Positions 5,404-45,127 of a stretch of 64,000 bases of DNA are shown here, in pieces; within the stretch, counting starts at the first letter, position 1, and every line of letters starts with the position of its first letter. Source of the stretch: Candidatus Nitronauta litoralis. GTDB lineage: Bacteria; Nitrospinota; Nitrospinia; Nitrospinales; Nitrospinaceae. The notes beneath the pieces are model-generated. The model ran no database searches. It had not been told where the DNA came from and saw only the letters and a list, made by a program, of their open reading frames with translations. The stretch covers positions 1,426,001 through 1,490,000 of the forward strand of contig CP048685.1 in the NCBI GenBank assembly GCA_015698285.1, read 5' to 3'. A program made the translations under genes and the position numbers.

Positions 5404-6282
5404 ATGCGCTTGTCCGCACTCACATTGTTATTCGTTTTGCTATTCACCTCCACTGCCTCCGCCTGGCACACGGAGAAGCACGAATTACTTAATGAGGCGG
5501 TCGAGGTCCTGAAGGATATGCAGGATGCCCCTGACGTGGCTATCCCTACTAAACTCCTCCAGAAAGCGAAAGCCATCGTGGTCATCCCGACTTTGCTGAA
5601 GGGCGGTTTCATGCTGGGTGCCCGCTATGGTGAAGGAATCGCCACAGTTCGAAATCCATATACCGGTAAATGGGGTCCGCCTTCTTTCATCACATCCGCT
5701 GGAGCCAGCTTTGGTTTTCAGGCAGGAGCCCAGGCCATCGATCTGGTTCTTCTGGTGATGTCCGAGCGCGGTATCAAGGGATTGTTGAAGGATAATTTTA
5801 CGCTCGGTGGCGACATCGCGCTTACTGCCGGCCCCGTCGGACGCTATGCCGAAGCAGGAGCAGACATCCTCATGCAGGGCGAAATCTATTCCTACTCGCG
5901 CAGTAAAGGTTTGTTTGGTGGCGTGTCCTTAAAAGGAACGGTTGTCCAGCCGAATGAAGACAAGAACCGGTCCTACTATGGAACTACAATGAATGCCGAC
6001 CAGATCCTGATGGGAGGCAAACTCAAACGCATTCCCAAAACTGCGATGGATTTTATTGGGTCGATGAACAAAGTCGCCCCGCCTTTTCAAAACCCGTACC
6101 AGGGTGAAAAACTGGCGCAAAACGAAGCACCCTCTCAGCCGATTCCTGCACAGGTTGCCAAACCTGCCAACCCGGTTCGTGCGCCACAAGCAGCGCCACC
6201 GGTGATGTCGCGTCGAGTTGAACCGTCGCACCCGAAACCGCCTGTTCAAGCCAAATCGAAAAAACAGGAACCTCTCTGGTAA
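5404..6282 (+). CDS. SYLF (Ysc84/DUF500) domain exported lipid-binding protein
   Basis: The start is placed at ATG 5404 because AAGGAG at 5391-5396 lies 7 bp upstream of it; an in-frame ATG at 5386 would precede that site. The 292-residue product has a signal peptide ending near SASAW. The SYLF domain follows, including AKAIVVIPTLLKGGFMLGA, GEGIATVRN, FITSAGASFGFQAGAQAIDLV and the end motif SRSKGLFGGVSLKG. SYLF domains bind acidic phospholipids in known members. The C-terminal 80 residues are Pro/Ala/Lys-rich and low in complexity. Flanking genes do not suggest a pathway. Confidence 0.85.
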   Translation: MRLSALTLLFVLLFTSTASAWHTEKHELLNEAVEVLKDMQDAPDVAIPTKLLQKAKAIVVIPTLLKGGFMLGARYGEGIATVRNPYTGKWGPPSFITSAGASFGFQAGAQAIDLVLLVMSERGIKGLLKDNFTLGGDIALTAGPVGRYAEAGADILMQGEIYSYSRSKGLFGGVSLKGTVVQPNEDKNRSYYGTTMNADQILMGGKLKRIPKTAMDFIGSMNKVAPPFQNPYQGEKLAQNEAPSQPIPAQVAKPANPVRAPQAAPPVMSRRVEPSHPKPPVQAKSKKQEPLW

Positions 6283-6616
6283 GAGAGCTTTGCATAATTC
6301 CTACAACAAAGGTCCAAGGCGAGATTCTTCTCTTCGCTCAGAATGACATTTCTTTGATTTAAAGTGTCGCATTCAAGAACGCGAATAATTATTCTTAAAA
6401 GACGTGACAGCGATTCTTGAAAACTTTACCTCTTATCCAATATTCCCCCTTCCACGAAGGGGGACGCGTAGCAGGGGGATTTGAGGCTTTGCAGTTACTA
6501 AAATGCCATTTAGCCATTCAGAATCTTTCGCCTTAGCTCAGAATAAACTCCACGAAGAATCTCGCCTTGGCTTTTATTTTTTGTATTTACGAAAGTTCTC
6601 TTTTTTAAAAGCCTGA
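6283..6616. repeat. Intergenic dispersed repeats (334 bp)
   Basis: The stretch begins right after the SYLF stop with AGAGCTTTGCATAA. It then has one GGCGAGATTCTTC...CTCAGAATGACA copy (6311-6350), a GGGGGACGCGTAGCAGGGGGATTTGAGG-type block (about 6460-6486, described in pieces) and an inverted copy ending in GAAGAATCTCGCC (about 6555-6567). No gene is seen. Confidence 0.65.
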
Positions 6617-6961
6617 TTGCAGCAATTGCCCTTGGGCGATGAAGGCATCATCCTCAGAATTCTGTTATTTAATTTCGGCATAAAACTCGGCCAGATCGGC
6701 GAGCTTTGTATCCTGTTGGCCCTCTTGTATAAATGGAGACGTGCCAAATCCTTTTTGCAGATCAGTTTCGCATCCAACCACGCCATCACTGCCGCAGGCG
6801 TGTTTTTTTTCCTGATGCAGATGCATGGCTACGAGCACACGATGAATCCCGATGAGTTTGGTTTCCCGGAAGAGAACCATTTTCATGCCCATGAAGCCAT
6901 GGACGTTGTCACACCCACCACTCCTCTCCCCGGCAGCGAATATCTGGTGGATCCTGAATAG
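6617..6961 (+). CDS. Hypothetical small membrane protein, possibly a 5'-truncated remnant
   Basis: The frame encodes up to 114 residues with one or two hydrophobic segments (ILRILLFNFG, ITAAGVFFFLMQM) and a polar, His-rich tail (HGYEHTMNPDEFGFPEENHFHAHEAMD). The only upstream initiators are TTG codons and no Shine-Dalgarno site is seen, while a dispersed repeat lies immediately upstream. The natural 5' end may therefore have been lost. I recognise no family. The tail looks protein-like, so I keep it at low confidence. Confidence 0.35.
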   Translation: MQQLPLGDEGIILRILLFNFGIKLGQIGELCILLALLYKWRRAKSFLQISFASNHAITAAGVFFFLMQMHGYEHTMNPDEFGFPEENHFHAHEAMDVVTPTTPLPGSEYLVDPE

Positions 6962-7016
6962 GTGGTTTTAATCAACATTTATAGGGTAAGTGATGACATT
7001 TTGTGCGATGGATATT

Positions 7017-8051
7017 TTAACTTTGCTTTGGGGTTATTTCAAAAACCCACAAGGGCAGGCCCTTGTTAAACGGTTCGTTAGGCAAAATTTTATCTAAGGA
7101 GGGTAAGCCTTTTAGTGAGGTCATTTTAGGAAGGTTGGATTGCCCCTCAGTTTGGAAAAAAAATATATTTGTATAGAGATCGCTTAAATAAGCAATAATT
7201 TGAAAAGGTTGATCCGTAATTTTTTCTTCAGGCACAGAAATATAATCCCACCCGACCAAATTACCGTTTGTAATTAAAAGTTCTTCTTTTGGTGATTTCC
7301 AAGTACCGAACCAGAACAAATAAAAAGCTAAACGCTCAATTTCTTTGTTCCTAATAATTCCCTCAGTAGAAACTAAATATATTCCAGTAATTTTGGCTGA
7401 AACTTTTTCATTTTTTCTGTTTATGTTTAAATTTTCTGGTTTTATTTTTATCCGAAATATTAAGGGACTTGTAGTTGCTACCGCCTTGTCGCCTAACTCA
7501 AACATATGATTTTTTTCGAAGGCTACAGACATTTCAAGTGTATATTTTCCCCGTTGAAGTTTAAAATCACCAAGATTGTTTAGACTCCATTTACCTAATT
7601 TTTTCCAGTAAATTGCAATTTTAATTGGAGAGCCGGTTATTTTTGAATAGGTTTTTATTTTTGAAATATAGCTTTTGGTAAAACTATACTGAAAGGTTTT
7701 TACATTTTTGTTTTGGGTTTTAGGAGAAAAGTTTTTAACCTCGATAAAGTATTTTTCCCCATTTTTTAATATTATTTTGAAATCAGGTATTTGAATATTG
7801 TCCGCTGAAAAATATTTTTCTTCGTCTAATTTTTGTATTAAGGCTACAGCTTTTAATTCTTTTACCATTTCAAAAAAAATATTCTCAGTCCTTTTTCCAT
7901 AAACAAACGTTGGACTATTTCTTATTTCGCGGGTTTCTTTTTCAAGTATGGAAGGAAGTTTTTTGATACCATTTTCCGTTGATAGGTCCAAATTGTGTTT
8001 CGTAGCAAATGAATCTAATTGTTCAATCAAAGAAAATATTTTTTTGGCCAT
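7017..8051 (-). CDS. PD-(D/E)XK nuclease-like protein, AT-rich orphan
   Basis: A 344-residue protein, strongly AT-rich compared with both neighbours. Residues 89-106 read as a PD-(D/E)XK core: IPD (P89-D90), 13 residues, then IEVK (E104, K106), with an upstream helix Glu (about E57 or E61). This is the active site of restriction-like endonucleases. The second half (about 150-340) has no recognisable motif. There is no signal peptide or membrane segment and no methyltransferase partner beside it. Its composition and isolation suggest horizontal transfer; a role in restriction or another defence is inferred only. Confidence 0.6.
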   Translation of the reverse strand: MAKKIFSLIEQLDSFATKHNLDLSTENGIKKLPSILEKETREIRNSPTFVYGKRTENIFFEMVKELKAVALIQKLDEEKYFSADNIQIPDFKIILKNGEKYFIEVKNFSPKTQNKNVKTFQYSFTKSYISKIKTYSKITGSPIKIAIYWKKLGKWSLNNLGDFKLQRGKYTLEMSVAFEKNHMFELGDKAVATTSPLIFRIKIKPENLNINRKNEKVSAKITGIYLVSTEGIIRNKEIERLAFYLFWFGTWKSPKEELLITNGNLVGWDYISVPEEKITDQPFQIIAYLSDLYTNIFFFQTEGQSNLPKMTSLKGLPSLDKILPNEPFNKGLPLWVFEITPKQS

Positions 8052-9279: not shown

Positions 9280-9391
9280 GGCAGATTAAAGAGCAGTGTG
9301 CGGTGGTGTTGGTTGGCTGATAGAAATCATTTTAAAGTCCGCTCAAATTGTGGTGTCTGCACACTAGCGGTTAGCCTGTCATGGCTGGTGA

Positions 9392-9847
9392 TCACATTTT
9401 TAAATGCATGGCCGTAATCCACAACATGCCGAGTCCCATGAACAATACGGTGCTGTTCAACTTCACTGACAGGGAATGCAGGGATTTAAACTTTGCCTCA
9501 AGAGCTTCATCCTCTCCACCAGCCGCCTTTATTTTTTCTTTTAATTGGCGGGCCTGGGGATTGACCACCTGTCCGGCGTAAAGCGAACAGACCAGCATGA
9601 TGGCCAGGAAAAACCAGTTCGGATTCAGGGAACCTCTCTGGAGAATAAACAGGCAGATAAACATGAGAATGCCGCAGACGTACTGAAGTTTGTAATACCG
9701 GGGGAAAATGGCACTGATGAGTTCGCCGGCCTGGGGTCGCTCTAATTGTTTGAACACGACGGGAGCTGTGAAGAACGAAAAGAAAATAATCGAACCAATC
9801 CACATCACTAACGAGAGCAGGTAAATAAACTGGGCGAAAGTGGTCAT
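9392..9847 (-). CDS. DUF4149-like four-helix membrane protein
   Basis: A 151-residue protein with four hydrophobic segments at about 5-30, 52-70, 77-95 and 128-150. The opening FIYLLSLVMWIGSIIFFSFFTAPVVF, seen here in parts, is typical of DUF4149 (TMEM205-like) proteins, whose biochemical role is unknown. The start lies 6 bp after the pyrF stop on the same strand, so it is probably co-transcribed with pyrF. Confidence 0.7.
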   Translation of the reverse strand: MTTFAQFIYLLSLVMWIGSIIFFSFFTAPVVFKQLERPQAGELISAIFPRYYKLQYVCGILMFICLFILQRGSLNPNWFFLAIMLVCSLYAGQVVNPQARQLKEKIKAAGGEDEALEAKFKSLHSLSVKLNSTVLFMGLGMLWITAMHLKM

Positions 9848-9853
9848 CGAAAT

Positions 9854-10582
9854 TTAGCTCGCAGGTGTGTTGGCTTCGGCGATTTCATCGACAATCCGGC
9901 AGGCAGCCTCTTTCGGGTCGTCCGCATCGCGGATGGGGCGGCCTACAACGATCATGTCGGCTCCGCTGGATATGGCTTGTGCCGGGGTCGTGATACGGCT
10001 CTGGTCGTCTTTTGAAATATGGACCCAATCAGGCCTGATGCCTGGAACCACGGCAATGATTTTATTCTGCACGGCGCTTTTAACATGGGATACTTCCTGC
10101 CCGGAACAAACAACACCGTGGCACCCTGCGGATTGAGCCTGCCTGGCGCGGTCCAGCACGAGGTTGGCAAGTTGCATATCCTTGATCGAAGGATCCTGAC
10201 CGGAAACATCAACCGAGCCTGAACTGGTCAATACGGTCACTGCCAGCAATTTTAGAGAACTGCCGGTTGCGCCATGGGCCGCGGCGCGTAACATGTCGAG
10301 GCCGCTTCCACAATGCACCGTGAGGTATTGAACGTTGTGCTTGGTAGCCGATTTCACGGCGGACCGAACCGTCGCGGGGATGTCATGCAGTTTGAGGTCG
10401 AGAAATATGTCGATATCGGAATGGTCGCGAATGGCTTTCAACACTGCAGGCCCTTCACTCACGAACAATTGCAGGCCAACCTTGAAACATCCCACCGCTC
10501 CATTGAGCAATTTCGCATAGCGCACCGCTTCGTTCAGGTCGGGCACGTCCAGAGCAAAAATCAAACGATCCTTTGGTTCCAT
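9854..10582 (-). CDS. pyrF: Orotidine 5'-phosphate decarboxylase
   Basis: A 242-residue TIM-barrel enzyme that converts OMP to UMP in pyrimidine synthesis. FALDVPD opens the barrel. The catalytic array DLKLHDIPATV (the D-x-K-x-x-D set) is intact, and VVGRPIRDADDP is the phosphate-binding end motif. The length is normal for group 1 enzymes. The ATP-grasp and Nudix genes lie just upstream on the same strand and the DUF4149 gene lies just downstream. Confidence 0.95.
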   Translation of the reverse strand: MEPKDRLIFALDVPDLNEAVRYAKLLNGAVGCFKVGLQLFVSEGPAVLKAIRDHSDIDIFLDLKLHDIPATVRSAVKSATKHNVQYLTVHCGSGLDMLRAAAHGATGSSLKLLAVTVLTSSGSVDVSGQDPSIKDMQLANLVLDRARQAQSAGCHGVVCSGQEVSHVKSAVQNKIIAVVPGIRPDWVHISKDDQSRITTPAQAISSGADMIVVGRPIRDADDPKEAACRIVDEIAEANTPAS

Positions 10583-37766: not shown

Positions 37767-38236
37767 CCATCAGGCTTGGGGCCAGCACCTCCCCGGAGGG
37801 GCGATAAATATTCCCTCTTTTTAAAGAGGGAAGGCGAAGCCAGGGTGATTTCTGGATCTTAAGCCTTTAGTCTGTCCTGAGCTTAAAGCCTGTCCTGGGC
37901 TTAGAGTTTATCCTGAGCTTAGAGTTTATCCTGAGCTTGCCGAAGGAAAGGGAAGGGGGACGCGAAGCAGGGGGCTTTTTCCCGTTAGCCGACCGCGAGG
38001 TCTTGTAGCTTTAAGTTGGGCCGGACCATTTCATGAGCGCATCGCATCGTGGGATGGCAGAGAACCTTGTTTAAACTGTCATTCTGAACGAAGTGAAGAA
38101 TCTCGCCTTTGCTTTTGGTTTTGCGGGTTAGCCTTTTTTCAGCCGTGCGCCAGCACTTCCCCCTTCGCAAAGGGGGCCAGGGGGCTTCTTCCTCCAGTGG
38201 GGATAAAGAGGAAATTGGAAGGTTGTTATGGATTAC
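37767..38236. repeat. Repeat-filled region left of the IS3 element (470 bp)
   Basis: Components in order: an AAAGAGGGAAGGCGAAGCCA block (about 37822), a four-copy 18-bp tandem repeat (37875-37946), an inverted-repeat arm (37964-38002 and 38134-38156) matched at 45.2 kb, a GTCATTCTGAACGAAGTGAA/GAATCTCGCC unit (38080-38109), and a GGGGGCTTCTTCCTCCAGTG block (38183-38202) interrupted by the IS3 element. No gene is seen. Confidence 0.7.
37875..37946. repeat. 18-bp tandem repeat, four copies
   Basis: Four successive 18-bp units begin at 37875, 37893, 37911 and 37929, each starting TCCTG(A/G)GCTT. The second and third are nearly identical (TCCTGRGCTTAGAGTTTA) and the last diverges to TCCTGAGCTTGCCGAAGG. 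Single relatives of this unit occur near 13.4, 13.7 and 45.3 kb, so this is a local expansion of a dispersed element. Confidence 0.8.
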
Positions 38237-38267
38237 CTGAACTTCCCCTGAATTAGTGGACAGTTAA

Positions 38268-39131
38268 TTAAGAGGCGAAGGCCCTATTCTCAAACTCGAC
38301 CGGGCTTTGGTAACCGAGGTATGAGTGACGGCGTTGCCGATTATAAAACACTTCGATGTATTCAAAAATATCCGCCTGGGCTTCCTGACGGGTTTTGTAT
38401 CTCCGGTTATGAGTGAGTTCCACTTTGAGAGTACGGAAAAAGCTCTCAGCTACGGCATTATCCCAGCAGTCTCCTTTACGGCTCATACTGCACTCGATTC
38501 CATGAGCCTTCAGCAGACTTTGAAAGTCGTTGCAGGCGTACTGGACTCCTCGATCAGAATGATGAACCAACCCGGGTTTCAAGGTGCCGTTGTTGATCGC
38601 CATATTCAAAGCCCTCATTACCAACCAACGGGTTATCGAACGATCCATAGCCCAGCCGATCACTTTGCGGTGGAATAAATCCAACGTCACCGCCAGATAC
38701 AACCAGCCTTCCCGAGTCGGGATATATGTGATATCAGATACCCAGCATTGACCGGGGCCGGAAACATTAAACTTCCGCTTGAGTTTGTTCTGAGCTACCG
38801 GGTGATTATGTCTGGAGTCCGTCGTCACCCTGTACTTTCTTTTGTGTTTAGAAACCATCTGATTCAGACGCATCAGACGAGCCACACGGTGTTTGCCTAT
38901 GACGTGTCCCTTGTCTTTTAAATCCGCATGAACACGGGGACTTCCATAAGTCTGGCGGCTCTTTTTATAAACCTTCTTGATCTCATCTACCCACCGGCGA
39001 TTCTCACGGCTCCTCAGGCTCTCGGGGCGATTCAGCCAGGCATAGAACCCACTTCTGCCCACTCCCAGCACCCGGCACATCTGGTTCACTGGAAATGCTT
39101 CTCGATGGTCCCGTATAAACCCGTACCTCAT
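38268..39131 (-). CDS. IS3-family transposase OrfB (DDE integrase domain)
   Basis: A 287-residue rve-type catalytic subunit. The HTH_21-like N-terminus is followed by the DDE triad: WVSDITYI (D), [11 protein letters not shown] (D) and [13 protein letters not shown] (E). All are intact, so the transposase may be active. Its ATG overlaps the orfA stop by 4 bp, and its frame is open upstream to an A7 run in orfA, permitting an OrfAB fusion by -1 frameshifting. Confidence 0.93.
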
Positions 39132-39421
39132 TGGGAATCCTTCGAAAAGATGACTGCCGCTTTTTTTAATATGTCTCGCTCCATTCGAAGCTGCGCGTTC
39201 TCTTTTCTCAACTGCTTCAATTCCTCTTCAGGAGTCAGCTTCTCCTGAACGGTAATGGCTTGCTCCTGCTCATATTCCTGCTTCCAACGACCAAGAAGGG
39301 AAGCACGAATACCAAGATCGCGAGATACCTGCGCTATGCTACTATTCCCCTCAAGAACCAAACCAACCGCTTCCAACTTGAATTCCTTACTGAAACTACG
39401 ACGCTTCCTCACCATTGACAC
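39128..39421 (-). CDS. IS3-family transposase OrfA (helix-turn-helix)
   Basis: A 97-residue OrfA with an N-terminal helix-turn-helix ([28 protein letters not shown], here in outline SKEFKLEAV ... VSRDLGI) and a leucine-zipper-like tail ([21 protein letters not shown]). Near its end the coding strand reads TTAAAAAAAGCGG (39170-39158), a slippery A-run typical of IS3 programmed -1 frameshifting. Confidence 0.92.
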
Positions 39422-39480
39422 ACCTCCAATATGCTTTATACATATTACTCGATGTGTCCACTTTTTCAGGGGAAGTTCAG

Positions 39481-39896
39481 TTGGTTTCTAAGTCTTTAGC
39501 CAATAAATTCTCCCCCCTCCTTAACAAAGGAGGGGGTGCGGGGGAGGTTGTATTTAAAACCCCTCCCTCACCACCCTCCCCTTGCAAGGGGAGGGAAAAA
39601 GACAACTCAAATGAATTCCTGTTTTAAAAAAACAGGAGTTTTGCAAAGATCTCCTTTAAAAGGAGAGCTTTGCATAACCCGGAAAATAGATTTTCCTGGC
39701 TCTGCTGGTATAAATGGTCAAAAACCCGTCATCGCGAGCGACCAGGGGGAGCGCGGCCACGGTATTTTTCCAAAGCTCTAGTGCCCCGGAGGGGGGGCAT
39801 CCTATAGGCATCACCGCCTTGAGGTTTGGGAACTGGTGAATAAGGAATTGATTTTAAGGCGGGAAACTGGTTAAATCTGGACAAATAGACACAAAT
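39481..39896. repeat. Repeat-filled region between IS3 and tRNA-Thr (416 bp)
   Basis: It contains a CCCTCCTTAACAAAGGAGGG hairpin (about 39513-39532), a second perfect CCCTCCCCTTG/CAAGGGGAGGG palindrome (39574-39595), GGAGAGCTTTGCATAACCC (39661-39679) and a GTCATCGCGAGCGACCAGGG unit (39728-39747) of a family also seen inverted near 45.45 kb. No gene is seen. Confidence 0.65.
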
Positions 39897-39969
<73 letters not shown>

Positions 39970-39982
39970 CTTTAATTTCAAG

Positions 39983-40014
39983 GCCTAGGGGAAGCCTCCT
40001 AGGCTATTTTTATT
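39983..40014 (+). terminator. Intrinsic terminator of tRNA-Thr
   Basis: The stem GCCTAGG (39983-39989) / CCTAGGC (39998-40004) has an 8-nt loop and is followed at once by TATTTTTATT (40005-40014), 14 nt past the tRNA end. Confidence 0.8.
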
Positions 40015-40311
40015 AACGCGGCCTGGATTAAGAAAAATATTTAATTGAAATTCCCTTTAGTTCTAATTACCGATAAAGATATAATTCAAATTCGGAATTA
40101 ATGAACTAAGTCAGGTTAGGATTAAATTTGTATTTGAAATTAAGATTTTGGCGCGTTGGACAAAAAATCTAAACGTGCTTTTCAAACTTTATAATTTGCT
40201 TAGGAAATAGGGAATATTTGATAAAGAATTTGGTTTAGATATTGAGAGAGCTTTAAAAATTAAAAATAATTAGGAAAAAATTACGCAGTAGAAGAGGTTA
40301 GAGAGATTTTA
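40015..40311. other. AT-rich leader upstream of the SIR2 gene (297 bp)
   Basis: Very AT-rich sequence with no frame of useful length. It has the composition of the cassette to its right and differs from the sequence left of the tRNA, so the compositional boundary of the island lies at or just after the tRNA. It probably holds the cassette promoter; no clear box pair is assigned. Confidence 0.45.
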
Positions 40312-41241
40312 ATGAGCAAACCACCTGATTTACGTCAAATTTTCGATCCGCCAGATGAAATAATTCAAGCGGGTCTAGATGGTAATCTTGTATTTTTTGT
40401 GGGAGCCGGGGCTTCAATGCTGCTTGGATTTCCATCTTGGAAAGGGTTAGCAAATCAGGCGCTAGATGACCTAAGAAAAAATGGATTGTTGAATTATTCA
40501 GAGTTAGAGCAATTAAAATCCCTAGACCCCAAGCAACAACTCTCCATCGCAAATTTGATTGCTAAAGATAACAAAACTAATTTAGACCTAGCAAAGCATC
40601 TCACTGGTAAAAATGAAGGGGATAGTATTTATAAGGCCATAAATAACGTTGGATGTTCCTGTGTAACAACCAATTATGACGAACTATTATCACCGCGCTT
40701 TAAAGAAATTAAGGATGGTTCGACTACAGCGAAGATACCGAATAGAGTCGCTGAAAGGGATAAGTTTTTTACCAAGTTACTAAATGAACCTGGAACCGTG
40801 GTTCATTTACATGGAGTAGTCAGTAAGCCAGAAACTATGATAGTTTCGACAAAAGATTATCTGGAACATTATGACAACGCACAGGTTAAGGAGTTTCTTG
40901 GCGAGCTGTTTGAAAAAAAAACTGTATTGTTTCTTGGTTATGGTTTAGAGGAAGCAGAGATTCTTGAGCACATCTTAAGAAGAGGTTCAGTTAAACAAAC
41001 CAGCGAAAGAAGACGATTTGCTTTGCAAGGGTTTTTCAATGGCCAAAAACCACTTTTTGAAAACCTTCATAATTATTATGAGCAGTCATTTGGAGTACAT
41101 TTATTGGGGTTTATTCGAGATCATGAAAACTATAAGCAGCTAGAAGGTATTATAAAACTCTGGGCGAATCAGATTGAAATAAAAAAACCACCTCTAGTAA
41201 GTGACGGCGACTTTTTGCATGAGGTTCTAGATGGCAACTGA
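40312..41241 (+). CDS. SIR2-domain protein (predicted NADase/deacylase fold), cassette gene 1
   Basis: A 309-residue SIR2-like protein. NLVFFVGAGASMLLGFPSW (GAGAS about 31-35) is the NAD-binding glycine motif, TTNYDELL (about 119-126) supplies the conserved Asn/Asp, VVHLHGVV holds the catalytic-type His (about 167), and VLFLGYGLEEAEI (about 205-217) is the second NAD-binding segment. There is no zinc-binding Cys set, so it belongs with defence SIR2 proteins that deplete NAD rather than classic deacetylases. It overlaps the next gene by 11 bp (41231-41241), implying co-translation and probably a complex. It is strongly AT-rich. Confidence 0.85.
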   Translation: MSKPPDLRQIFDPPDEIIQAGLDGNLVFFVGAGASMLLGFPSWKGLANQALDDLRKNGLLNYSELEQLKSLDPKQQLSIANLIAKDNKTNLDLAKHLTGKNEGDSIYKAINNVGCSCVTTNYDELLSPRFKEIKDGSTTAKIPNRVAERDKFFTKLLNEPGTVVHLHGVVSKPETMIVSTKDYLEHYDNAQVKEFLGELFEKKTVLFLGYGLEEAEILEHILRRGSVKQTSERRRFALQGFFNGQKPLFENLHNYYEQSFGVHLLGFIRDHENYKQLEGIIKLWANQIEIKKPPLVSDGDFLHEVLDGN

Positions 41242-44062
41242 TTTATCAGTGAGAGAAAAAGAACTTCTACAAAGAGTTGATGAAAAAGAAGAGCTTCGCC
41301 CAATTTTCTTTAAAAAAGTTAAAGGTTTGAAATGGTTTGATGCTCTTGCCGCAAGAGGCTATTTCACTCCCGAAAAAAACCCAAAGCCTGTGCCTAGTAA
41401 GAGAGAGGGGTATATTAATATTCCACATTGGCCGGTCAGTGATTATTTAGTAAAAACTGCTCCAGAATTGTCCATAGAGGAAAACCAAGAATATGCAAAA
41501 AAATATCTCAGACTAATTATAGATGTTTCCAATTTTGCCAAAGAGAAAAAATATAGTAACTACAATACATGGTGGAGATTTGCAGAAATAGTCAGCTATT
41601 TGCCTCTCGAGATAATTGACATTGAATTAATAAACTCTATTGACTATTGGATGGAGGATGAGTTTGAGAATGATTTAGTCGCCAAAGAATTAGGTGAGGA
41701 ATGGCTTCCCAATTTATTAGAATCAAATGATAACCATTCATTGTGGTTATCAGAAAAAGTTCTCGAGGTTATTTATAAAGTAAAATTTTTTGACCGTGAT
41801 GACTTTGGGGTAAACAAACGTGAGTCACGCTTGAGATTTGGATACTACTATGCCCAAAAAATTACGAAAAATGTGGCAACTATATCAGGAATCAAATTGG
41901 GTAGAATTGCTATCAAGATATTTCAAGACCAATTGAAAAATATATTTCGTGCAATGAACAATGATTTGTGGTCATCAATTTGGCAGCCAGCCATTGAAAC
42001 TCATGAGCAAAATAAATACAGAGAAGATGCTAAAAATATTTTAATTCAAGCTTATCGTGATTCACTAATAGGCTACATAAAAAACGACCCTGCCGAAGCA
42101 CATAGTTTTGTGAATGAGATGCTCCGATCGGAATTTCAGACAATTCATAGAATAGCGCTATTTGCAATTTGCGAAAACTTCAACAATTTTAGAAATGCGA
42201 TTGATGGAATATTAGATGAAAAATATTTTAATAGTAATTATCGCCATGAAATGTGGAACTTATTAAATCATAATTATCAACACTTCACTCAATCACAAAA
42301 AGAAAAAACCCGTGAAATTATTTTAGGTATTTCAAGAGAAGAGGATGATGGGAAATATCATGAAGGTGCAACAGCTTACAGTAAAGCTATTTGGTTGGCC
42401 GCAATTAGAGGGCATGGGAAGACAGAAGCTCGCCTATATGGAGAAAATGTAAAAATTGCAAAGTCAGAACCGGAGCACCCAAGTTTTTCTAGTTATATGT
42501 CCTCTGGTAGCCGTGAATGGGAATCACCGTTTTCTATTGAGGATTTGCAGGTCTTAACTATTGAGAACCTTATAAAGGAATTAGAAAATTTCAAAGAAAC
42601 TGACCAGTTTGGCGGACCAAGTCTAGAGGGTTTAGTAAAAACTTTTAAGGAGCTGATTAAAACAGAGCCACTAAAATTTTATCTGCAATTAAATAAATTT
42701 AAAAACATTGGCCTTGCATATAAACGTGAAATTATTGAAGCATATGGGGAATTATGGGTAGAAAAAACTAATTTGCCTTGGGATGGCATATGGAATGAAT
42801 TGTTAGAGTTTTGTTCTTTTATTATTTCTCAAGATGATTTTTGGAGCACTGAAAATGACAAAAGTGATAGCCCTCAAAAAGCAAATAGGCATTGGGTTGT
42901 AAGCAGCATTGGAAGGCTTTTAGAATCCGGCACTCAATTAAATGAGCACGCTTTCAACCAGAAATATTTAAGTAAAGCAGAAGAGATACTTGTATGCCTT
43001 TTAGAAAAAGAAGGAGGTAGCCAATTTGACCAAAATAGCGATGCAGTTTCTATATCTATAAATAGTCCTCGTGGTCACTGCCTTCAAGCACTAATTAACT
43101 TAACTCTTTATGCTTGTCGTCTTTCTGACCAGAAAAATAACAAGGACCATTCTGAAATATGGAAACAATTTCAAAAGTACTATGATCAGGAGCTAGACCG
43201 CTCTGACTCAGGATTGCATGAGTACGAATTCACAACTCTAGTGACCAATTACCTCCCAAATTTTCTTTATATGTCAAAAGATTGGGTGTTAGTTAACCTA
43301 TCAAGAATATTTGATTCAAGTAAATATTTGAAGTGGTTATGTGCAATGCAAGGGTATGCATATGTGGGTACCATTTTTCCAGAGATTTTCCAATATTTAA
43401 AAGAAAATGACCATCTCTTGAAAGTTTTAGACGACGAAAATATCGAAGACCAATTAAAAGAGAAAGCAGTTCAGAATATTGTAATTTCTTATATTAAAGG
43501 TTATGAGGGTATTGAGGACGATAACAGTCTAATAAAAACTCTTATTTCAAGGAATAAAATTGATGAAATAAAGTGTTTAATCTGGTTTATTTGGACATTA
43601 CGAAAAAAGGATGATGAAAATTTAACAAATAAAGTCTATGAAATTTGGCCAATGATTTTACAGAACATAGATTTTTCTACCAAAGAAGGCAAAAGATTAG
43701 CCTCATACCTATCTCAGTGGGCAGGTTTTGTTGTCAAGGTAGATAAAATTAAACTCAATTTGCTTCTTGCGGTTGCTCCTTATTCTGATGAAGAATACAA
43801 CTCTTATCAGTTTTTAGAAAGTATTGCGGAAATAAGCCAGGTACAGCCATTTGATGCTCATTTGATCTGGATGGCAATGTTAAAAACCTCAACACCTGAT
43901 TACCCGGAGAGGGCCATCCGTCAGATACTGAAAAACTTAATTAAAGAAGGAAATGAAGGTTTTCGAAAAGCACGAGAAGCTGTAAGCGAGTACATAAAAA
44001 TTGGTAATGATCGCCCGTCTCTTTGGCTAAAAGAAATTAAGGAAGAGATAGGAACTCTTTAA
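41231..44062 (+). CDS. Large helical partner protein of the SIR2 cassette, gene 2
   Basis: A 943-residue protein that I do not recognise. It appears all-helical, with many Leu/Ile/Lys/Glu-rich helices suggesting a HEAT/ARM- or TPR-like solenoid (for example KYLRLIIDVSNFAKEKKY, KAREAVSEYIKIGN). No transmembrane segment, Walker A (RGHGKTEAR does not fit) or nuclease motif is seen. The N-terminus FFKKVKGLKWFDALAARGYF looks like a conserved docking segment. Its start lies inside the SIR2 gene with GAGG (41221-41224) upstream. By analogy with defence SIR2 systems it could be the phage sensor or the scaffold that controls the NADase; this is inference. Confidence 0.7.
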   Translation: MATDLSVREKELLQRVDEKEELRPIFFKKVKGLKWFDALAARGYFTPEKNPKPVPSKREGYINIPHWPVSDYLVKTAPELSIEENQEYAKKYLRLIIDVSNFAKEKKYSNYNTWWRFAEIVSYLPLEIIDIELINSIDYWMEDEFENDLVAKELGEEWLPNLLESNDNHSLWLSEKVLEVIYKVKFFDRDDFGVNKRESRLRFGYYYAQKITKNVATISGIKLGRIAIKIFQDQLKNIFRAMNNDLWSSIWQPAIETHEQNKYREDAKNILIQAYRDSLIGYIKNDPAEAHSFVNEMLRSEFQTIHRIALFAICENFNNFRNAIDGILDEKYFNSNYRHEMWNLLNHNYQHFTQSQKEKTREIILGISREEDDGKYHEGATAYSKAIWLAAIRGHGKTEARLYGENVKIAKSEPEHPSFSSYMSSGSREWESPFSIEDLQVLTIENLIKELENFKETDQFGGPSLEGLVKTFKELIKTEPLKFYLQLNKFKNIGLAYKREIIEAYGELWVEKTNLPWDGIWNELLEFCSFIISQDDFWSTENDKSDSPQKANRHWVVSSIGRLLESGTQLNEHAFNQKYLSKAEEILVCLLEKEGGSQFDQNSDAVSISINSPRGHCLQALINLTLYACRLSDQKNNKDHSEIWKQFQKYYDQELDRSDSGLHEYEFTTLVTNYLPNFLYMSKDWVLVNLSRIFDSSKYLKWLCAMQGYAYVGTIFPEIFQYLKENDHLLKVLDDENIEDQLKEKAVQNIVISYIKGYEGIEDDNSLIKTLISRNKIDEIKCLIWFIWTLRKKDDENLTNKVYEIWPMILQNIDFSTKEGKRLASYLSQWAGFVVKVDKIKLNLLLAVAPYSDEEYNSYQFLESIAEISQVQPFDAHLIWMAMLKTSTPDYPERAIRQILKNLIKEGNEGFRKAREAVSEYIKIGNDRPSLWLKEIKEEIGTL

Positions 44063-44213: not shown

Positions 44214-44522
44214 ATGAAAAAAGAAAAACTATGGACTGATGAAGAGCATTCAGCAGCTATTGAAGCATATTTAAGAATGTTACATTTTGAGAAAGAAAAT
44301 ATTCCATACAGTAAGGCAAATATAAGAAGAGATCTTCTAAGTGGCCCTTTGCAAAACCGTTCAAAAGGATCAATAGAATTTCGAATGCAGAATATTTCAG
44401 CCGTTTTAAATAACCAAGGAAAAACTTGGATACCCGGGTATAAACCGGCTAAAAATGTTGGGAGAATAGTTGAAAGAAAAATTGCTGATATTATATTGAA
44501 GATTGAGGGAAAAGGGAAATGA
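44214..44522 (+). CDS. Stand-alone McrA/HNH-associated N-terminal domain protein
   Basis: A 102-residue protein. WTDEEHSAAIEAYLRML and SKGSIEFRMQNISAVLNN followed by WIPGYKPAKNVG match the N-terminal domain found on many HNH and McrA-type (modified-DNA) restriction endonucleases. Here the frame stops directly after this domain, with no HNH or SRA part downstream, so it is either a truncated remnant or an independent DNA-recognition module. It is AT-rich like the SIR2 cassette, 150 bp downstream of it on the same strand. Confidence 0.65.
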   Translation: MKKEKLWTDEEHSAAIEAYLRMLHFEKENIPYSKANIRRDLLSGPLQNRSKGSIEFRMQNISAVLNNQGKTWIPGYKPAKNVGRIVERKIADIILKIEGKGK

Positions 44523-44764: not shown

Positions 44765-45127
44765 TCATGCCGCCTGGTTCTGCTCCATCTCCTTAAGTGG
44801 GTCCATGCTGATATATCTTCTGATACCCCACCTGGTTCCGGCAACGTGCCTGAGTCTGGCCGCCGCCAGCATCAAGGCCGATTGCCCATCTGGGAAACAA
44901 CCGACCACTCGCGTCCGTCGCCGTATCTCACGCAGGATACGTTCCAGTGGATTATTCGTCCGAATGTTCCGCCAGTGCTCTCTCGGAAACGCGTAGTAAG
45001 ACAACGTCTCATGCGCTCCGTCTCTCACTTTCTCCGATGCCTTCGACAACTTCATGCTGAGAAGTTTGCCCGCCACCGATTCGATCTTCTCAATTGCCGC
45101 CTGCCGGTCTTCCTGTAAAGGGGTCAA
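44765..45127 (-). pseudogene. IS256/Mutator-type transposase, C-terminal remnant
   Basis: About 120 codons match the C-terminus of IS256-family transposases: FPREHWRNIRTNNPLERI, EIRRRTRVVGCFPDG and AARLRHVAGTRWG. A full transposase is about 400 residues; the N-terminal two thirds with the first two catalytic Asp are missing and the frame begins at a REP-like hairpin (45123). The left end probably extends to about 44643 (GTGTCAAGAAAGTTTCGCAC). It is not functional on its own. Confidence 0.85.

Follow-up and report, generated by a model that had tools for sequence, protein, structure and literature searches.

A probable two-gene form of the DSR1 anti-phage defence family in Candidatus Nitronauta litoralis

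Two overlapping genes of Candidatus Nitronauta litoralis very probably encode a split version of the anti-phage defence protein DSR1, in which a large helical solenoid would act as sensor and regulator and a separate SIR2 protein as effector. Translation of the two would be coupled, and their products probably form a complex. The pair lies in the window, a stretch of 64,000 nucleotides. Its first gene encodes a SIR2 NADase-like putative effector of 309 aa (40312-41241, forward strand), while the second encodes the large solenoid of 943 aa, a putative phage sensor and regulator of the SIR2 protein (41231-44062, forward strand). The genes share 11 bp (41231-41241, forward strand), and these positions, lengths and overlap are exactly as first reported. 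A GAGG motif resembling a ribosome-binding site is located 6 nt upstream of the solenoid gene's ATG at 41231, and the same kind of junction is also seen in relatives.

The identity of the pair follows from the PADLOC Dsr1 profile PDLC04166 (1227 positions). The SIR2 protein matches positions 7-286 (1.5e-53) and the 943-aa protein positions 309-1199 (2.4e-126). These matches are consecutive, in order and almost gapless, so the two genes cover DSR1 end to end. The preliminary description, which suggested a comparison with PADLOC, had proposed an undescribed defence system; the match of both halves to the Dsr1 profile contradicts this. The case that it gave as refuting this, an already named system, holds in part. 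DSR1 is a known system, described as a single gene (PMC10973363), but a two-gene form, described or tested by experiment, was not found in the open literature, a scope that leaves aside subscription papers and preprints and makes a prior description possible. What appears to be new is therefore the two-gene form, as one not found described, and not DSR1 itself.

The relationship to characterised DSR1 is nevertheless distant. Against the NCBIfam Dsr1 model (NF041818), the SIR2 protein scores 29.9 bits (1.2e-07) and the 943-aa protein 50 bits (9.8e-14), and neither passes the equivalog cut-off of 1400 bits. A fused SIR2-solenoid protein from another genome (G246) also fails with 51.4 bits, so the cut-off excludes the whole subfamily to which it and the window proteins belong. 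With scores this far below the cut-off, the window pair and the G246 protein are, by sequence comparison, a distant DSR1 subfamily, far from characterised DSR1.

The SIR2 protein retains the NAD-site motifs noted earlier, namely GAGAS (31-35), TTNYD (119-123), HLHG (165-168) and GYG (209-211). Its sole significant Pfam match is SIR2_2 (PF13289, 3.1e-19), and all 12 SIR2s compared keep the catalytic Asn and His. N121 of TTNYD and H167 of HLHG align with N133 and H171, the catalytic residues of DSR2 (PMC11087589). In a profile comparison this half aligns with DSR2 over its full length (5.1e-28), and it can be described as DSR2-like, as other SIR2_2 NADases are. The preliminary description had compared the pair to DSR2 cut in two. 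Though the SIR2 half aligns with DSR2, the solenoid rules this out: two solenoid profiles (A6 and A4) matched no DSR2 chain even with E values up to 10 allowed, and the protein that is split is DSR1.

The 943-aa protein shows no domain at useful score in a Pfam search, and its structure model is almost wholly helical at low confidence (pLDDT 65, pTM 0.40). This agrees with the earlier view of an all-helical protein without recognisable catalytic motifs. Foldseek returned only generic HEAT/karyopherin matches (TM < 0.3) for this model, and the solenoid profiles gave no relevant match to solved structures by sequence. For the SIR2 protein (pLDDT 55) Foldseek placed DSR2 and ThsA first, on a weak model. 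Both models are weak; the AlphaFold alignments took in two sequences, the window's and that of one Vibrio relative (L020), and were hence shallow.

In DSR2, recognition of a phage component and control over NAD+ hydrolysis fall to the C-terminal part (PMC10973363, PMC11087589), and the B. subtilis protein is activated by a phage tail tube protein (PMC11087589). By analogy, the large protein is most likely a phage sensor that would control a separately made NADase. The two genes would be translated in a coupled way, and their products would probably form a complex equivalent to single-chain DSR1. Binding of a phage component to the solenoid would then release the SIR2 active site (N121, H167), and the released SIR2 would hydrolyse NAD+ and thereby stop the infection. 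The sequence data show the co-linear match to Dsr1, the recurrence of the pair, the intact active site, the purifying selection in Vibrio and the variety of solenoid partners. Assembly of the two proteins, recognition of phage, loss of NAD+ and protection are the steps that we infer here, and the sensor/effector model put forward earlier remains plausible.

The two-gene arrangement recurs in unrelated bacteria. Searches with the Dsr1 profile and a solenoid alignment were used to gather relatives; a genome-contig search with a single window protein as query gave no match. Separate SIR2-then-solenoid genes were found in seven lineages, comprising the window, Vibrio (L014, L020), G002, G399, G422, G523 and G554, a conservation of the pair that bears out its proposed co-occurrence. 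For example, the pair on Vibrio coralliilyticus plasmid pOCN014 is 51% and 36% identical to that of the window and overlaps by 8 bp, and an uncultured Vibrio also carries such a pair. G002, from the same class as the host, has a 4-bp overlap, as do G399 and G422, while G523 has an overlap of 8 bp and G554 a 3-bp gap. Fused SIR2-solenoid genes occur in G246, G220 and also G086, where the contig end truncates the gene. No close relatives of the pair were found in viral contigs, and phage records gave no match.

In the solenoid tree (23 rows), the window groups with Vibrio (100/100) and then with G422 (98/96), all of them split. The SIR2 tree gives the same order, with Vibrio (100/99) followed by G422 (93/94). 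Because both trees agree, the two genes seem to have moved as a unit within this clade. Outside it, split forms are mixed in with fused ones, which points to repeated fission or fusion. Between the two Vibrio copies, dN/dS is 0.07 for the SIR2 gene and 0.29 for the large gene, approximate values that rest on few differences; both genes are under purifying selection in Vibrio.

Genes beside the relatives include a type I methyltransferase (G002), type IIG enzymes (G086, G345), DISARM-type DrmMI (G149, G594) and HerA (Vibrio). The preliminary description had pointed to gene neighbourhoods, and relatives indeed often adjoin restriction or DISARM genes. On pOCN014 (L014), the neighbours of the Vibrio pair are a HerA-type ATPase (6232-8040, reverse strand, 9.4e-181) and a SLATT-domain protein (9291-9860, reverse strand).

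Related solenoids are also found with other partners. A helical protein of 226-250 aa and of no known family precedes them in G342, G149, G274, G586 and G594, and a similar helical domain is fused to the solenoid in G431, G425, G507, G561 and G660 (hhalign E = 3.4e-06 for G431). In G345 and G624, a TIR-solenoid fusion is preceded by a separate SIR2 gene. The solenoid tree places G344, a helical fusion, beside the SIR2-fused G246 (100/100), and the SIR2-split G554 within the helical clade (91/89). This variety of partners (SIR2, helical, TIR with SIR2) suggests a sensor that can change its partner. A broader reading, compatible with the split-DSR1 explanation and standing at roughly even chances, takes the solenoid as a general receptor that serves a wider two-component class, in which DSR1 is the single-chain SIR2 form. 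Its supports are the helical partners, separate or fused, the TIR fusions beside SIR2 genes and the tree positions of G344 and G554; against it, no function is known for the helical domain, whose homology is non-significant in G344 and partial in G274, and whose role as an effector is taken from gene position. Put more fully, and with the odds just as evenly poised, the DSR1-type solenoid could be a portable phage receptor, a separate sensor subunit that has undergone repeated fission, fusion and effector exchange. Its effector, which it is an equal toss-up to suppose so interchangeable, would be SIR2, an undescribed helical domain or TIR plus SIR2, carried in an overlapping gene of its own or fused.

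Several observations concern these partners themselves. Helical proteins of ~227 aa, at 8337-9023 in L037 (reverse strand), 6254-6934 in L038, 2524-3207 in L075 (reverse strand) and 5481-6170 in L076, share the conserved motifs 'RFV.HG.REIRN.LP' and 'TTE.F' and are encoded just before DSR1-type solenoids. They found no match in Pfam, PADLOC or the PDB and are possibly a new effector family, a candidate whose 'effector' label comes from gene position. An identity as HEPN proteins was considered but is not claimed, as the RNxxxH-like stretch present in L038 and L075 lacks its His in L037. A helical-solenoid gene of G535 (L068, 4676-8038) is broken into two ORFs and is apparently a decayed copy. 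The TIR-solenoid fusion with a SIR2 gene before it occurs in two genera of one family (L040, 6749-11222; L100, 5494-9979, reverse strand), placing two NAD-consuming domains within one putative system.

Could the pair instead resemble a toxin-antitoxin module, in which SIR2 would be an NADase that is always active and the large protein would chiefly inhibit it, without phage sensing? Two overlapping genes in an operon that begins with a small toxic enzyme would fit, yet antitoxins are usually far smaller than a solenoid of 943 aa, and the protein to which the homology points, DSR1, serves in defence. The large gene evolves faster in Vibrio, as a sensor would be expected to, and restriction and DISARM genes surround the relatives, all of which makes this alternative unlikely. 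Less probable still is that a frameshift, through mutation or sequencing error, broke one DSR1 gene in the window genome. The halves do meet on the Dsr1 profile with hardly any positions missing, the outcome expected of a single-base indel, and fused relatives exist. However, the split recurs in seven lineages, in which the genes overlap by 4, 8 or 11 bp or lie 3 bp apart. The two reading frames are therefore related differently from case to case, and one frameshift does not account for them all. The solenoid gene also has its own ATG, with GAGG before it, and the nearest tree relatives (36% identity) are likewise split; a frameshift or pseudogene was therefore rejected. The least probable reading, a Thoeris-like or SIR2-HerA-like system whose large protein makes a signal or is a motor, draws on the resemblance of the SIR2 protein to ThsA (2e-17) and LmuA (7.5e-17) in PADLOC, but both scores are far below that of Dsr1, and the absence of any SLOG, TIR, helicase or ATPase domain from either window protein refutes it for this pair.

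A split DSR1 thus remains the preferred reading, and comparison with known systems shows where it stands. Like the pair, DSR1 has an N-terminal SIR2_2 NADase followed by a helical solenoid of ~900 aa (profile co-linear over 7-1199 of 1227), but it is one polypeptide, whereas the window has two ORFs with an 11-bp overlap, split also in six other lineages. DSR2 shares the combination of SIR2 and helical solenoid and the conserved catalytic Asn and His, but it is a single chain whose solenoid has no detectable sequence similarity (PDB 8K98, 8WKX and others). SIR2-HerA (Nezha), SPARSA and Kongming (KomC) likewise encode the SIR2 NADase apart from its regulator, while in Thoeris ThsA it is fused to its sensor. 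Their partners differ, however. That of SIR2-HerA is a HerA ATPase, and the window partner has no ATPase domain; that of SPARSA is a short Argonaute with APAZ, neither of which was found in the window proteins; those of Kongming are nucleotide enzymes, unlike the unrelated helical solenoid of the window. Thoeris pairs a SLOG-containing ThsA with the TIR protein ThsB, and no SLOG or TIR was found in the window proteins. Avs5 (SIR2-STAND) has a SIR2_2 effector with GAGxS and TTNxD motifs (PMC12931631), which the pair shares, but it is one chain with a STAND ATPase, and the pair has no ATPase domain.

With a naturally split DSR1, sensor and effector could each be produced, altered and combined on their own. 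This would open to direct test the way in which the solenoid keeps SIR2 inactive and its ability to drive another effector. Software that looks for DSR1 as a single long protein may overlook two-gene forms or label them wrongly. The recurrence of the solenoid with a helical partner also raises the possibility of an effector family absent from Pfam and PADLOC, and the solenoid itself is without a solved relative by sequence.

The pair sits in a low-GC island, with 34-35% GC against about 45-52% around it and a GC3 of 0.29-0.31, compared with 0.42-0.72 for those neighbouring genes that were measured. The strong AT-richness and horizontal acquisition proposed in the preliminary description are borne out, as is the location after a tRNA gene, a tRNA-Thr (CGT) at 39897-39970 (forward strand) on the island's left border. 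The window holds no repeat of the 3' end of this tRNA and hence no trace of integration at the tRNA site, and that route was rejected. Between tRNA and cassette lies a terminator-like hairpin (39982-40005, forward strand), and upstream of the SIR2 gene a weak sigma-70-like promoter match (40242-40270, forward strand), although such sites do not exceed the chance number in this region.

Of the nearby transposase remnants described earlier, the one on the right is indeed a fragment, of a Mutator-family transposase (44765-45127, reverse strand; Transposase_mut 1.9e-18, positions 283-369 of 379). On the left is instead an IS3-type insertion element (38237-39481, reverse strand; rve, HTH_21, HTH_Tnp_1), which flanks the island and is outside the system. 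Two further 100%-identical copies make three in the genome, so it has probably been active recently. The pair's own neighbours are mostly housekeeping genes, plus one truncated candidate defence gene. An ORF of 102 aa (44214-44522, forward strand) is PDC-S36-like, matching positions 1-91 of a 280-position profile (6e-26), and is probably truncated, with no continuation downstream in any frame.

The pair is absent from two same-genus genomes. In one of these (G011), another gene, not the cassette, follows tRNA-Thr; the sister-species site was compared in part, since the contigs end soon after. Elsewhere in the window, a second AT-rich patch (31% GC at 7001-8000) holds a 344-aa ORF (7017-8051, reverse strand; GC3 0.27) with no Pfam match. 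An 18-bp tandem repeat lies at 37869-37938, and the segment 36900-40020 contains short repeats of 40-140 bp that occur dozens of times across the genome and two same-genus relatives.
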